From Patescibacteria group bacterium (lineage in GTDB: Bacteria > Patescibacteriota > Microgenomatia > UBA8517): a DNA stretch of 64,000 nt. The DNA is taken from NCBI GenBank assembly GCA_035549555.1, contig DASZQR010000010.1:1-64000 (forward strand), given 5' to 3'. Position numbers and translations under genes: made by a program. Under the pieces are notes generated by a model that saw only the letters and a list, made by a program, of their open reading frames with translations, made no database searches and was not told the origin of the DNA. Of the stretch, positions 35,089-42,435 are shown in pieces (the stretch's first letter is position 1; every line of letters starts with the position of its first letter).

Positions 35089-35859
35089 ATGCCCAAAAAA
35101 ATTTTATTAGTAATATTTATATTAGGAATTTTAAGTACAAATAATGTTTTTGCTCAGACACAATCTTTTACAGATGTGGGTTCTTCAATTTCTGTTAGTG
35201 GTAATAATATCCAAGACGGAGACATAATTTGTTCGGGATCATCAGGCTATATTCTCTGTCAAAATGAATACGACTCTTCTATGTATGGGGTTGTAGACTC
35301 CAATCCTTCAGCAGATGTACAAATAGTAGACTTAACTAATTCTCAAACAGTAGTTTCAAGAGGTGAAGTTCCTCTTCGAGTTTCTTCTATAAATGGAGAA
35401 ATTAAAAAGGGAGATTTCTTAACAAGCTCTAAAATTCCGGGAGTGGCAGAGTTATCAATTAATCCTGGTTTTGTGATTGGAACAGCTCTTCAGGATTACA
35501 ATTCTACTGACAAAAATGCGATTGGAACCATTCAAGCAAGTTTAAATATCCATCCGCGAACAGATTTAAATTTAAATGCAAGAACAAATTTAGTTTCTCT
35601 TTTACAAAACGGCCTTGCAGGTTTGGGTATAAGTCCTATTTCTGCCCTTCGTTACATTCTCGCCTCAATTCTTGTTATTTCATCATTTGTCATAGGATTT
35701 GTCTACTTTGGCCGTATTGCAAAAACGGGAGTTGAAGCAATCGGAAGAAATCCTTTGGCAGGAATCCGTATTCAGGCAAGCGTTATTATAAACGTCGCAG
35801 TCATGATTGCGATTGTTCTTGTAGGCCTAGTTGCAGCTTATCTAGTTTTAATTATTTAA
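35089..35859 (+). CDS. Surface domain fused to an F0 c-subunit-like hairpin lacking the carboxylate
   Basis: 256 residues. Residues 1-22 are a signal peptide ending 'NNVFA'. Residues about 25-155 form an extracellular domain related to the fibre's C-terminal domain ('QDGDIICS', 'RGEVPLRV', 'KKGDFLTSSKIPGVA', 'GFVIGTALQ'). Residues about 185-256 form two membrane helices joined by the loop 'AKTGVEAIGRNPLAGIRI', closely matching the polar loop of ATP synthase subunit c. In E. coli c the ion-binding Asp61 lies 20 residues after the loop Arg41; here the equivalent residue (20 after Arg220) is Ile240, and neither helix has an acidic residue. Topology predicts the loop inside and both termini outside, as in a real c ring, so a ring would be decorated on its outer face. 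It is first in an operon with gpmI and the F1 genes. A proton-carrying role is unlikely. Confidence 0.85.
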   Translation: MPKKILLVIFILGILSTNNVFAQTQSFTDVGSSISVSGNNIQDGDIICSGSSGYILCQNEYDSSMYGVVDSNPSADVQIVDLTNSQTVVSRGEVPLRVSSINGEIKKGDFLTSSKIPGVAELSINPGFVIGTALQDYNSTDKNAIGTIQASLNIHPRTDLNLNARTNLVSLLQNGLAGLGISPISALRYILASILVISSFVIGFVYFGRIAKTGVEAIGRNPLAGIRIQASVIINVAVMIAIVLVGLVAAYLVLII

Positions 35860-35862
35860 TAA

Positions 35863-37560
35863 ATGTTTTTTAGTCTTTTTTCAAAACCAAAAGTAAAAGT
35901 AAATGCCGGAAAAACAAATCCGGTTGTTCTAGTCATACTTGACGGATGGGGAATAGCTCCGGCATCAGATGGAAATGCAATTACTCTTGCAAATCCAGAT
36001 AACTATAACAATCTACTTGCAAACTACCCGCATTCAGAACTTTTAGCATCAGGAGAATCTGTTGGTTTACCGGCAAATGAAGTGGGAAATACTGAAGTAG
36101 GTCATTTAAATATCGGAGCTGGGCGTGTAATCTTACAAGATCTTCCAAAAATAAATAAAGCAATTCAGGATGGTTCTTTTTTTGAGAACAGAGCTTTTTA
36201 TCATGCCGGATTCCACGCACAAAAAAATAATTCCAAAATTCATATCATGGGGCTTGTAAGTACAGGAAAAGTTCATTCATCTATAGATCATTTATATGCA
36301 CTACTAGAATTTTTCCAAAAAACAAATAACACAAGACCTATTTATATTCACTTATTCACAGATGGTCGTGATGCACCTCCACAGGAGGGAATTAATGTCG
36401 TTACAAAACTCGAAGATTATCTTAATAAGACAAAATCTGCCCAAATCGCAACAATATCTGGAAGATATTATGCAATGGACCGCGATAAAAGGTGGGATCG
36501 TACTAAAAAAACTTATGAGGCAATGGTAAAAGCAATCGGTCCAACAGCAACTTCAGCAAGCGAAGCCTTAAAGGCTAGCTACGCTGCAGGTATTACTGAT
36601 GAATTTATCGTACCAACAATTATTAACAAAAACGGTTTGGTTGAAAATAACGACGCTGCGGTCTTCTTTAATTTTAGAATTGATAGACCAAGACAGCTTA
36701 CGATGTCTTTTGTTATAAAAGATTTTACAAAATCAAATTTAACATGGGAATTTGACCCTTACGCTGTTGATTACGAACATAAACACGAAGGAGATAAAGA
36801 AGTTGTTTTAGATAAAGAGCCATTTGCAAGAGGAGGGGTATTATCAAACCTTTATTTTGTAACAATGACACAATATCAAAAAAATATCCCAGTAAATGAC
36901 ATCGGCTTTCCGCCTGAAATAGTTTCTGATTGTTTGTCTGTTATTCTTTCAAAAAATAATATTGAACAAATGCATATGGCAGAAAGCGAAAAAGAGCGTT
37001 TTGTAACTTATTACTTTGACGGCCTTCGGGAAGAGAAGCAGGAAGGAGAAGACGTCGCAATTGTTCCTTCTCCCCATGTACCAACATATGACAAAAAGCC
37101 GGAAATGTCAGTTTATTCTTTAACCGAAGAATTTAAAAAAGTTTTAAACAAAGACATGTATAAATTTATTGTTATGAACATAGCAAATGCTGATATGGTT
37201 GGGCATACTGGAAATATACAAGCAACTATTAAAGCCATTAAAGCAGTCGATGCATGCCTTAAAGAAATCGCCGAAAGTGTTATGGTTTGTAATGGTACGT
37301 TATTGATTACAGCAGATCATGGAAATGCTGAACAAAAACTTAGATATGACTCAAGCAGTTTCTTTTTTACGTCAGACAAAGGGAAAATGAGCACAGATCA
37401 CACCACAAATCCAGTGCCTTTCATCGCTGTAAGTAAAAATTTATTTAGATCTAATAAACAAATTCCAAAAGGAATCCTTGCTGATATATCTCCAACAATT
37501 TTAAAATTATTAGGTTTAGAAATTCCACCTGTCATGACAGGCAAAAATCTATTAAGCTGA
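35863..37560 (+). CDS. gpmI: 2,3-bisphosphoglycerate-independent phosphoglycerate mutase
   Basis: Interconverts 3- and 2-phosphoglycerate in glycolysis in a two-metal, alkaline-phosphatase-superfamily mechanism. Seen: 'LVILDGWGIAP' (metal-binding Asp), 'GNTEVGHLNIGAGR', 'HLFTDGRDAPP', 'ISGRYYAMDRDKRW', 'NIANADMVGHTGN' and 'LITADHGNAE', all in family order. At 565 residues it is slightly longer than the usual 510-550 and has about 20 extra N-terminal residues. Oddity: the nucleophile motif, normally GNSEVGH, reads GNTEVGH, replacing the phosphorylated Ser by Thr. Threonine serves as nucleophile elsewhere in the superfamily, so activity is plausible. It starts 3 nt after the pseudo-c gene and ends 4 nt before the b-like subunit, placing a glycolytic enzyme inside the F1 operon. 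Confidence 0.95.
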   Translation: MFFSLFSKPKVKVNAGKTNPVVLVILDGWGIAPASDGNAITLANPDNYNNLLANYPHSELLASGESVGLPANEVGNTEVGHLNIGAGRVILQDLPKINKAIQDGSFFENRAFYHAGFHAQKNNSKIHIMGLVSTGKVHSSIDHLYALLEFFQKTNNTRPIYIHLFTDGRDAPPQEGINVVTKLEDYLNKTKSAQIATISGRYYAMDRDKRWDRTKKTYEAMVKAIGPTATSASEALKASYAAGITDEFIVPTIINKNGLVENNDAAVFFNFRIDRPRQLTMSFVIKDFTKSNLTWEFDPYAVDYEHKHEGDKEVVLDKEPFARGGVLSNLYFVTMTQYQKNIPVNDIGFPPEIVSDCLSVILSKNNIEQMHMAESEKERFVTYYFDGLREEKQEGEDVAIVPSPHVPTYDKKPEMSVYSLTEEFKKVLNKDMYKFIVMNIANADMVGHTGNIQATIKAIKAVDACLKEIAESVMVCNGTLLITADHGNAEQKLRYDSSSFFFTSDKGKMSTDHTTNPVPFIAVSKNLFRSNKQIPKGILADISPTILKLLGLEIPPVMTGKNLLS

Positions 37561-40810: not shown

Positions 40811-42193
40811 ATGAAAAATTCTGGCAAAGTTGTAAGCATTAAAGGTCAAATAGTTGAGGTTCATTTTCAGGATGAACAGCCTCGTATTTATGACATCTTG
40901 GTATTTGAAGACAAAGATAAAAAAGTTTTATCCAAGATGGAAGTTTCTTCTTCAAGTGTTGATAGTACTTATTATTGTTTAGCTCTTGGTAAAACTACAG
41001 ATCTCTACAGAGGAGCAATTGTACGTAACACTAATGAAGGAGTTGTGTTTCCTGTTAGTCAAAATATCTTGGGAAGAGTGGTCAACTTATTTGGAGAGCC
41101 TCTTGATGCATTAGGTGACGTTAAAAGTGATAAATTTATGCCAATCCATAAAGAAACTTCTTTGGATGTTAGTCAGTTAAAGTCTACCGAACTTTTAGAA
41201 ACTGGAATAAAAATTATTGATTTATTTACACCATTAACTAAAGGAGGCAAGATGGGTTTGTTTGGAGGAGCTGGAGTTGGTAAAACAGTTTTGCTATCAG
41301 AAATATTACACAATGTTGTTCAACTTAAAGAAAAAGAATCAGCATCTGTATTTGCTGGAGTTGGGGAAAGATCGCGTGAGGCAATAGAATTACAAGAAGT
41401 CTTAACAAAAACTGGTGCAATTAAAGACTCAACTTTGATATTTGGGACAATGGGAGAAGATCCTGCAACAAGATTCTTATCAGCTTATTCTGCTGTAACT
41501 CTTGCCGAATACTATCGCGATTTCCTAAAGCGAAACGTCTTGTTTTTTATTGATAATGTTTTTCGTCTGGCCCAAGCTGGTAACGAACTTTCAGTTTTAA
41601 CAAATACCATCCCTTCTGAAGATGGTTATCAATCAACCCTTGAATCAGAAATGGCCAACTTCCATGAAAGACTAATATCAAACGATAAAGGGACAATAAC
41701 TTCAATTGAAGCTATTTATGTACCCGCAGACGATCTTCTTGATCATGGTGTCCAATCAATTTTTCCATATCTTGATTCAGACGTTGTTTTATCTAGAAAT
41801 CTTTACAAGCAAGGCTTCCTTCCGGCGGTAGACATTGTCAGTTCTAATTCATCAGCGTTAAACCCTGAAATTGTAGGTGAAGAAGCTTACAATACCGCAA
41901 TTGAAGCAAAATCTTTATTAAAAAGAGCAGAAAATCTAGAAAGAATCGTTTCATTGGTTGGAGAAGGTGAATTGTCAGAAGAAGATCAAACTATATTCAA
42001 AAGAGCTCATAAGATACGTAATTTCATGACCCAAAGCTTCTTTGCAACAGAAAGTCAGAAAAATCAGCCTGGTAAATTTGTAACGAGAGAAGCCTGTGTC
42101 AACGATGTACGCTCAATTTTATCTGGAAAATTTGATAATGTTCCTGAGGAGAAATTTCTTTATCTTGGTACCTTATCAGAAATTAAGCTCTAA
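40811..42193 (+). CDS. atpD: F1 ATPase beta-subunit-like protein (catalytic)
   Basis: Catalytic subunit. Seen: P-loop '[10 protein letters not shown]', catalytic glutamate in '[10 protein letters not shown]' (family GERTREGN), Walker B '[16 protein letters not shown]', '[15 protein letters not shown]', '[16 protein letters not shown]' and the DELSEED-like '[10 protein letters not shown]'. All catalytic residues are kept, so ATP hydrolysis is expected. Divergent spots are the replacement of the invariant TREGN and LATEMG stretches. Length 460 is normal. A good Shine-Dalgarno AAGGAG (40795-40800) lies 10 nt before the ATG, unlike most first genes. Overlaps atpC by 1 nt. Confidence 0.94.
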
Positions 42194-42435
42194 TGCTAAG
42201 TTTATTAGTTAAAAACAGAGATAAAATAGTCTTTCAGGGAGAAGTTGACAATATAACTTCCTACAATAAAAGTGGTATTTTTGATATCTTAGACGATCAT
42301 TCTAATTTTATATCTATTATTGAAAAACAAATTATTTTTAGGCAAAGAGGTTATGAACAGCAGATAGTTGTTGACACAAATGCTCTTATTAAGGTCAGAG
42401 AGAATAGAGTTTGGATTTATTTAGGTATTAAATAA
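42193..42435 (+). CDS. atpC: F1 ATPase epsilon-subunit-like protein, short form
   Basis: 80 residues covering only the N-terminal beta-sandwich of epsilon ('VKNRDKIVFQGEVDNITSYN' and 'SGIFDILDDHSNFISII', cf. family PxxxvfxgexxxvxxpgxxGxxGilpxHxp). The C-terminal helical hairpin that regulates rotation in the usual 130-140-residue protein is absent. The beta-sandwich is the part that sits on the c ring, so docking to a c-like ring may be kept while ATP-dependent inhibition is lost. Last gene of the operon. Confidence 0.8.
   Translation: MLSLLVKNRDKIVFQGEVDNITSYNKSGIFDILDDHSNFISIIEKQIIFRQRGYEQQIVVDTNALIKVRENRVWIYLGIK

Follow-up and report, generated by a model that had tools for sequence, protein, structure and literature searches.

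A Patescibacterial F1-like/X0 ATPase operon with a putative membrane subunit derived from subunit c and bearing a phage fibre-like domain

We analysed a window of 64,000 nucleotides (positions 1 to 64,000 of contig DASZQR010000010.1, assembly GCA_035549555.1) from a Patescibacteria group bacterium of the Microgenomatia, in which an operon at 35089-42435 encodes F1-type ATPase subunits together with a protein that we term pseudo-c (psc). The operon probably specifies a dedicated, hydrolysis-only ATPase of the rotary type (F1-like/X0), in which ATP would turn an ion-free rotor derived from subunit c and carrying an extracellular crown; it is almost certainly not an ATP synthase. An F1 head, a c-derived hairpin, a domain predicted to lie outside the cell and the absence of a recognisable ion path are each supported by the encoded sequences.

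The layout of psc, with its transmembrane (TM) hairpin, is as follows.
35089..35859, + strand: pseudo-c (psc), 256 residues, with signal peptide, extracellular beta domain and c-like two-helix hairpin
35089..35157, + strand: predicted signal peptide of psc, residues ~1-23, ending ...NVFA-Q (sequence read by eye; similar N-termini in other alignment rows)
35167..35559, + strand: psc ectodomain, residues ~27-157, phage fibre/decoration-like fold with a Cys pair (Foldseek, VIA-align)
35635..35856, + strand: c-like TM hairpin of psc, residues 183-256 (hhalign, matches to Protein Data Bank (PDB) profiles)
35734..35754, + strand: conserved psc loop E216..R220-N221-P222 (family alignment)
35806..35808, + strand: position of the canonical ion-binding Glu, Ile240 in psc (RNP+18; alignment column 82)

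By homology of both sequence and predicted fold, the psc hairpin belongs to the subunit c superfamily. In a full-length alignment with canonical subunit c of the Candidate Phyla Radiation (CPR), residues 179-253 match at an hhalign probability of 96.4% (E 1e-9), and the best 11 of 16 matches of the psc family profile to the PDB are c subunits (top E 6e-5). The AlphaFold2 model, built from a 25-row alignment (mean predicted local distance difference test (pLDDT) 87.7; predicted template modelling score 0.62), has two long helices, preceded by a beta domain and a short helix. Its hairpin superposes on c subunits, among the matches listed, with Z 9-11 and a root-mean-square deviation (rmsd) of 1.4-3.7, such Z values being weak on their own for helical hairpins.

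A scan of named records found 161 relatives, the best 80 of which were kept as named loci, and the psc alignment retains 86 non-redundant members from a collection of 105. The column of the ion-binding residue is acidic in none of the 86 (32 Ile, 15 Leu, 14 Val, 12 Phe, 8 Ala, 3 Gly, 1 Cys and 1 Thr), whereas Glu is invariant there in eight canonical CPR c subunits. All four loop residues (E, R, N and P) occur in 86/86, a conservation in part imposed on the 80 named loci by the scan pattern that selected them, while the ion column is independent of that pattern. The counterpart of this loop meets gamma and epsilon in F-ATPases, and psc is very probably the membrane partner of these two subunits here. 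Other positions mark the family, namely a Tyr before TM1 and a Gly in TM2 (86/86 each) and an Asn or His in TM2 (85/86; 73 Asn, 12 His, 1 Ser), which lies five residues from the ion position. Twenty additional loci supplied 23 further hairpins, with an acidic ion position in 0/23 and R-N-P kept in all; L184 and L192 carry an acid early in TM2. An earlier sequence-only reading of the window had taken pseudo-c for a replacement of an absent c; a subunit derived from c and kept by purifying selection is the better description. The hairpin (35662-35847) also has a weak NCBIfam match to mycoplasma MPN157 (7/25 members, best E 0.012), and two psc genes accompany a single F1 set in each of L038, L183, L188 and L189.

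The model of the ectodomain is consistent with the fold of the phi29 gp12 C-terminal fragment and of phage decoration proteins, the match extending over most of the domain. VIA-align, which re-scores Foldseek matches and is not an independent search, places the gp12 C-terminal fragment first (Z 13.7, 113 residues, rmsd 2.5), with the HFTV1 portal-capsid interface (Z 12.1) and the Sf11 capsid (Z 11.5) behind it; the BB1 capsid and a TW1 capsid-stabilising entry are also found by Foldseek. Pfam matches are weak (XM1 gp53 in 5/25, best 1.2e-4; Phage_cement_2 in 4/25, best 0.0023). In 85 sequences, both Cys of the pair are present in 34 and neither in 51, with a single one never observed in these columns. 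This both-or-neither pattern is expected of an extracellular disulphide and, together with the signal peptide, places the fibre-like domain outside the cell. The predicted topology of psc would then be that of subunit c, with both ends outside, the loop inside and an extra domain at the N-terminus on the outer side.

The eight genes of the operon were verified in the order psc, gpmI, b, delta, alpha, gamma, beta, epsilon, as the sequence-only reading had given it, and those downstream of psc are listed here.
35863..37560, + strand: gpmI, phosphoglycerate mutase, a passenger in part of the family (Pfam; locus comparison)
37565..38086, + strand: b-like stator subunit, N-terminal TM and long helix (position; layout as in relatives)
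38061..38510, + strand: delta (OSCP)-like subunit (Pfam, NCBIfam)
38512..39957, + strand: alpha, Arg finger and P-loop intact, short N-terminus (Pfam, NCBIfam, alignment)
39935..40810, + strand: gamma, rotor shaft (Pfam, predicted fold)
40811..42193, + strand: beta, catalytic residues intact (Pfam, NCBIfam, alignment)
42193..42435, + strand: epsilon, N-terminal domain only (80 residues), C-terminal helices absent (Pfam, alignment)

Pfam E-values are 2.1e-8 for delta (OSCP), 3.3e-71 for alpha, 7.2e-25 for gamma, 1.9e-60 for beta, 3.5e-7 for epsilon and 4.1e-72 for gpmI. Subunit b has hardly any sequence signal, and its placement and its N-terminal TM/helix layout match those of relatives. The window beta narrowly exceeds the NCBIfam atpD cut-off (464.7 vs 462.85 bits), and the window alpha lies below both canonical alpha cut-offs (392.5 vs 484.45 and 436.1 vs 554 bits).

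Subunit a and a working subunit c are lacking at the locus, as had been proposed: only psc, with its non-acidic ion site, and gpmI stand there. A search for atpB and atpE across the genome, set beforehand as the result that could overturn the proposal, gave the same answer. In this genome (1,010,846 bases in 16 contigs, 96.04% complete), no subunit a (PF00119; control positive in 9/14), no subunit c over the Pfam cut-off (PF00137, pseudo-c included; control positive in 14/14) and no V_ATPase_I (control positive in 8/14) were found, the possibly missing 4% being the remaining loophole for the absence of a and c in this genome only. Its ATP-synt_ab genes are the window alpha, the window beta and Rho, so that there is no further rotary ATPase head. 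We also checked five further operon-bearing genomes for atpB, which was lacking in four (including CP006914, CP055307 and CP066686) and present in one (L137). Around the operon, no open reading frame (ORF) of at least 300 residues with at least eight hydrophobic segments occurs inside it in 84 loci, with four loci having one within 3 kb, and no hidden subunit a was recognised in the 20 further loci (L181-L200).

The F1 subunits of the family were compared with 16 canonical CPR operons and with E. coli. The window proteins have Walker A, GER and the alpha Arg finger; across the family the beta Walker A Lys is found in 76/78 rows (2 gaps) and the alpha Arg finger in 80/81 (1 gap). The sequences thus contain the features expected of a catalytic alpha3beta3gamma core, including the P-loop, the catalytic Glu and the Arg finger, and Pfam and alignment together bear out the b-to-epsilon gene set in classical order with intact catalytic residues that had been read from the sequence. 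The DELSEED-like loop is kept, with its E and L in 75/78 rows and a variable acidic pair. The window gamma is predicted to fold into a normal shaft plus globular domain (pLDDT 85.4), with F1 gammas as its best fold matches. Gamma had been described as altered, and positions adjacent to E209 and P210 do differ from canonical gamma; the subunit is not simply damaged, as all family rows (100%) have E209, 98% have P210 and the predicted fold is ordinary. Likewise the alteration of epsilon holds, though not as a peculiarity of the window, for the C-terminal helices are absent in nearly all members (80-100% gaps; median length 88 in the family vs 139 in canonical epsilon). In canonical F1 these helices restrain hydrolysis. 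Alpha lacks much of its N-terminal helix throughout the family; the mycoplasma X0 alpha is likewise short of it, according to the part of PMC12994834 consulted. The combination of a truncated epsilon, intact catalytic residues, an ordinary gamma and a short alpha N-terminus fits a hydrolysis-only enzyme. Separately, the 709-residue ORF of L037 (8863-10992) has a gamma-like start followed by beta and may be a gamma-beta fusion or a sequence error, and genes split into two ORFs, perhaps by assembly errors, were seen for beta in L042 and L079 and for gpmI in L033 and L064.

Comparison of gene order in relatives, as the sequence-only reading had suggested, places alpha downstream of psc on the same strand in 75 of the 80 named loci. 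The five named loci lacking alpha are L094, L108 and L115, which leave the contig, L087, which ends 1.5 kb past gpmI, and L130. Subunits b and delta lie beside alpha in 67/80 and gpmI lies inside the operon in 19/80. Among the 20 further loci (16 distant and 4 close forms), F1 genes are near psc in 17, with altered order in L186 and L199. Record titles of the relatives name Woese-, Levy-, Ames-, Shapiro-, Roizman- and Daviesbacteria, WWE3, and Microgenomates or Patescibacteria; single Paceibacterota, Parcubacteria and Saccharibacteria records may be misbinned. Of 56 relatives, 8 carry both full-length psc and atpB, 16 only psc, 8 only atpB and 24 neither, which makes 24 with psc and 16 with atpB. 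Within a sample of 137 genomes of the class, psc was found in 49 and atpB over the cut-off in 86 (both in 32, psc alone in 17, atpB alone in 54, neither in 34), one of the psc-alone genomes (G067) having a weak atpB fragment with a stop; the two genes are neither mutually excluded nor linked (Fisher p 0.71, relatedness uncorrected). In a phylum sample of 239 genomes, 38 had a match across both psc domains (24 close and 14 distant, counted by eye).

A tree of concatenated alpha and beta (FastTree, LG+gamma, 946 columns) gathers the X0 rows in one clade (72/72, support 1.0) and the canonical CPR rows in another (13/13, 0.94), E. coli as the sole outgroup leaving a branching of X0 from CPR F1F0 indistinguishable from an earlier one. 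X0 rows are fast-evolving (mean root-to-tip 2.5 vs 1.0 for canonical rows). In close pairs psc has a dN/dS of 0.05-0.16, and the subunits together, wherever dS is defined, span 0.02-0.25, ratios that are rough because many dS exceed 1 and are near saturation in many pairs. From these comparisons the X0 family seems to be old, to have arisen once and to be maintained by purifying selection. The conserved F1, the lack of a, the c-derived hairpin, the single clade, the low dN/dS and the coexistence with F1F0 argue for a dedicated ATPase and not for a decayed synthase.

Upstream of psc, on the opposite strand, stands the giant gene g1, whose product has a MerR-type helix-turn-helix (HTH) at its N-terminus.
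28755..34925, - strand: g1, divergent neighbour with MerR-type HTH, TM (read by eye) and giant fibre (HTH pattern)
29352-29723, - strand: psc-type ectodomain in the C-terminal part of g1 (E 7e-17)

The sequence-only reading had remarked on the giant surface genes beside the operon, and the association recurs: 36 of 70 testable loci have a large divergent ORF with a MerR-type HTH N-terminus no more than 1.5 kb upstream of psc, compared with 0/14 canonical F1F0 loci (Fisher p 2e-4, relatedness uncorrected). Of the other testable loci, 20 have a large divergent ORF that does not fit the HTH pattern and 14 lack any such ORF. Only five neighbour ORFs were seen to carry the shared C-terminal domain, many of the neighbour ORFs being cut by locus ends. 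Besides the HTH giant (an ORF cluster in 64/84 loci), the commonest cluster near the operon occurs in 15/84 loci. The g1 product, which also has a long repeat-rich part, resembles a regulator tethered to the membrane and joined to a surface fibre, and it recalls eukaryotic MyRF, as described in the consulted part of PMC8326128. Two more giant proteins are encoded at 14508-28755 (- strand); both contain six Laminin_G_3 stretches and a DUF2341 domain.

In the mechanism that we propose, pseudo-c subunits would assemble into a rotor attached to gamma-epsilon, either as a ring or as threefold sets, the latter considered because the known relatives of the ectodomain fold are trimers. With alpha3beta3 held in place by b and delta, its hydrolysis of ATP would turn gamma-epsilon together with the pseudo-c rotor and its crown of fibre-type domains, which would move relative to the envelope and deliver torque or a cycling force onto surface proteins. 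The most likely recipient would be the neighbouring giant fibre, whose C-terminal part bears the same domain. That pseudo-c forms a rotor that turns is slightly on the probable side, and that the giant fibre is its target is rather doubtful. The ATP-driven or F1-anchored surface machine of the sequence-only reading is retained here as the best inference.

Several observations weigh against this mechanism. The strongest of them, as regards a plain rotor-stator arrangement, is stator loss. Subunits b and delta are missing in 8/80 named loci, in which psc is followed directly by alpha. Seven of these loci cluster in the tree (L043 representing the identical L085), with L141 separate. A delta profile that found all three controls returned nothing in six of the eight genomes; in the remaining two, the delta found lies elsewhere, within a second X0 operon (G401) or within a canonical F1F0 operon (G398). 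The absence of delta from six genomes means that a fixed stator is not universal, so that another stator may exist or the work may not be rotation against the membrane. The core, as judged from gene content, is psc, alpha, gamma, beta and epsilon, with b and delta dispensable in places. L130 has psc and b without F1, and three of the 20 further loci lack F1 genes, L185 near a contig end and L182 and L194 with 4-10 kb remaining. In addition, the 86 psc sequences retain little of the Gly-rich TM1 typical of c-rings, so ring formation is not assured, distant psc forms keep R-N-P only and not the loop Glu, the AlphaFold models are monomers and silent on assembly, and the HTH-bearing neighbour is absent in 34/70 testable loci. 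The alpha N-termini of the b/delta-less loci L043, L066, L093, L113, L136 and L139 share MIHS[FY], perhaps a different docking site.

The leading rival is a static anchor, an ATP-gated scaffold or clamp, in which the F1-like complex and pseudo-c would hold or release surface fibres by conformational switching and without rotating continuously, close to a proposal in the literature for the mycoplasma MIB-MIP ATPase. Such an anchor would accommodate the eight loci without b and delta and the loss of c-ring Gly packing, and the ectodomain fold, trimeric in its known relatives, could provide a threefold hub under alpha3beta3. Against it stands the retention of the gamma shaft fold with its E-P motif, of the DELSEED-like loop (E and L, the acidic pair being variable) and of b and delta beside alpha in most loci, and we consider it unlikely. 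An energised device for the export or folding of giant fibres, comparable to FliI/FliJ, with the ectodomain acting as a fibre-type chaperone, would make sense of the linkage to the HTH-bearing giant and of an ectodomain that is homologous to the giant's C-terminal domain and resembles the gp12 C-terminal fragment. Nearly half of the testable loci lack that neighbour, however, the operon encloses no multi-TM gene in any of 84 loci, and scores for SctN and FliI fall far below cut-off (best alpha 205/604.75 for SctN and 202.4/379.5 for FliI/YscN), which makes this quite improbable. A cryptic ion pump, using the conserved TM2 Asn/His and an unrecognised a-like partner, is highly improbable: Asn is non-ionising and stands five residues off the ion position, and no gene with at least eight hydrophobic segments lies inside the operon (4 of the 84 loci have one within 3 kb), which leaves room for a smaller or more distant partner. 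A decaying or minimal synthase whose a and c were lost or are encoded elsewhere, for which minimal, lost or incomplete CPR ATP synthases offer precedent in the consulted parts of two surveys (PMC10656485, PMC11738941), is scarcely credible given one conserved clade with low dN/dS (dS near saturation in many pairs), atpB alongside psc in 32/49 psc-bearing genomes of the class, and the lack of a and c elsewhere in the window's genome, where it is refuted as far as 96% completeness allows.

Among known systems, canonical bacterial F1Fo shares with the operon its F1 subunits, b, delta, gene order and a c-type hairpin with an RNP loop, but the operon is without a and without the ion carboxylate, its c-like protein bears an ectodomain and its epsilon is truncated. 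Phage decoration proteins and the phi29 gp12 C-terminal fragment share the ectodomain fold, fused here to a rotor-type hairpin in a bacterium. Membership in the N-ATPases (alt_F1F0) was tried and rejected (380.8/750.5 and 403.9/752 bits), as was membership in the export ATPases from the scores given above. Likeness to the mycoplasma F1-like X0 ATPases, raised by the sequence-only reading, holds for the layout and the non-F0 membrane part only. The Type 3 systems (MSC_0618/0619, MMCAP2_0575-0581), in the portions of PMC3369863 and PMC12994834 consulted, have alpha, beta, gamma and epsilon with no F0 a, are tied to the cell surface and keep a normal F1F0 alongside, as many psc relatives do. The layout of psc, with a signal peptide, an ectodomain and a pair of TM helices at the C-terminus, corresponds by description to that of the mycoplasma X0 protein (PMC3369863, in part). 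Unlike Type 3, the two-TM protein here appears c-derived by sequence and has a phage-fibre-like domain; unlike Types 2 and 3, b and delta are retained in the window and most loci, and the 12-TM membrane protein is missing, all eight window genes being otherwise accounted for. NCBIfam scores fall far short of the cut-offs for the MMOB1660/1670 and MSC_0619/0618 families (378/600, 371/850, 271/520 and 393/570 bits). The psc-type ATPase is, on gene content and sequence, built differently from its mycoplasma counterparts. In the Type 2 G1-ATPase of M. mobile, as the consulted part of its structural description with bound PGK reports (Toyonaga 2025, PMC11864180), an F1-like head is likewise thought to act via non-F0 membrane proteins, but the head is dimeric, beta has an N-terminal extension, GliD is possibly a b-delta fusion and that part mentions no c homologue. 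Its built-in PGK, another glycolytic enzyme, recalls the gpmI found inside the operon in part of the psc family.

The consulted text of Béven 2012 (PMC3369863) gives no known equivalent of F1-like X0 ATPases outside mycoplasmas, and that of Berlureau 2026 (PMC12994834) still terms the type mycoplasma-specific and finds it needed for antibody evasion. CPR F-type ATPases are variously present, lost, minimal or incomplete in the parts consulted of PMC10656485, PMC11738941, PMC8672522 and PMC13293708, and searching PMC7304191 for ATPase terms gave no match. We found no recognisable description of such an ATPase in Patescibacteria in the open literature, a search that covered neither subscription papers nor preprints and took in a few papers in part.

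We tentatively suggest that Patescibacteria, a very large group of tiny uncultured bacteria, possess a widespread further class of rotary ATPase, in which F1 turns an ion-free c-derived rotor with one extracellular phage-fibre-type domain per subunit, so that ATP consumed in the cytoplasm would drive a crown outside the cell that acts on giant fibres. If this is true, the two-TM X0 protein of mycoplasmas would be explained as the same solution, reached or inherited elsewhere. The origin of the mycoplasma X0 is unknown in the literature, and in the psc family X0 is visibly a subunit c with its ion site lost and an outside domain gained, which offers a concrete prediction of how an X0 is built, perhaps for mycoplasmas too. 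Matches to atpA and atpD alone can overstate the number of ATP synthases in Patescibacteria, and the psc-type operons would show a route by which a rotary ATPase can be uncoupled from ion transport.

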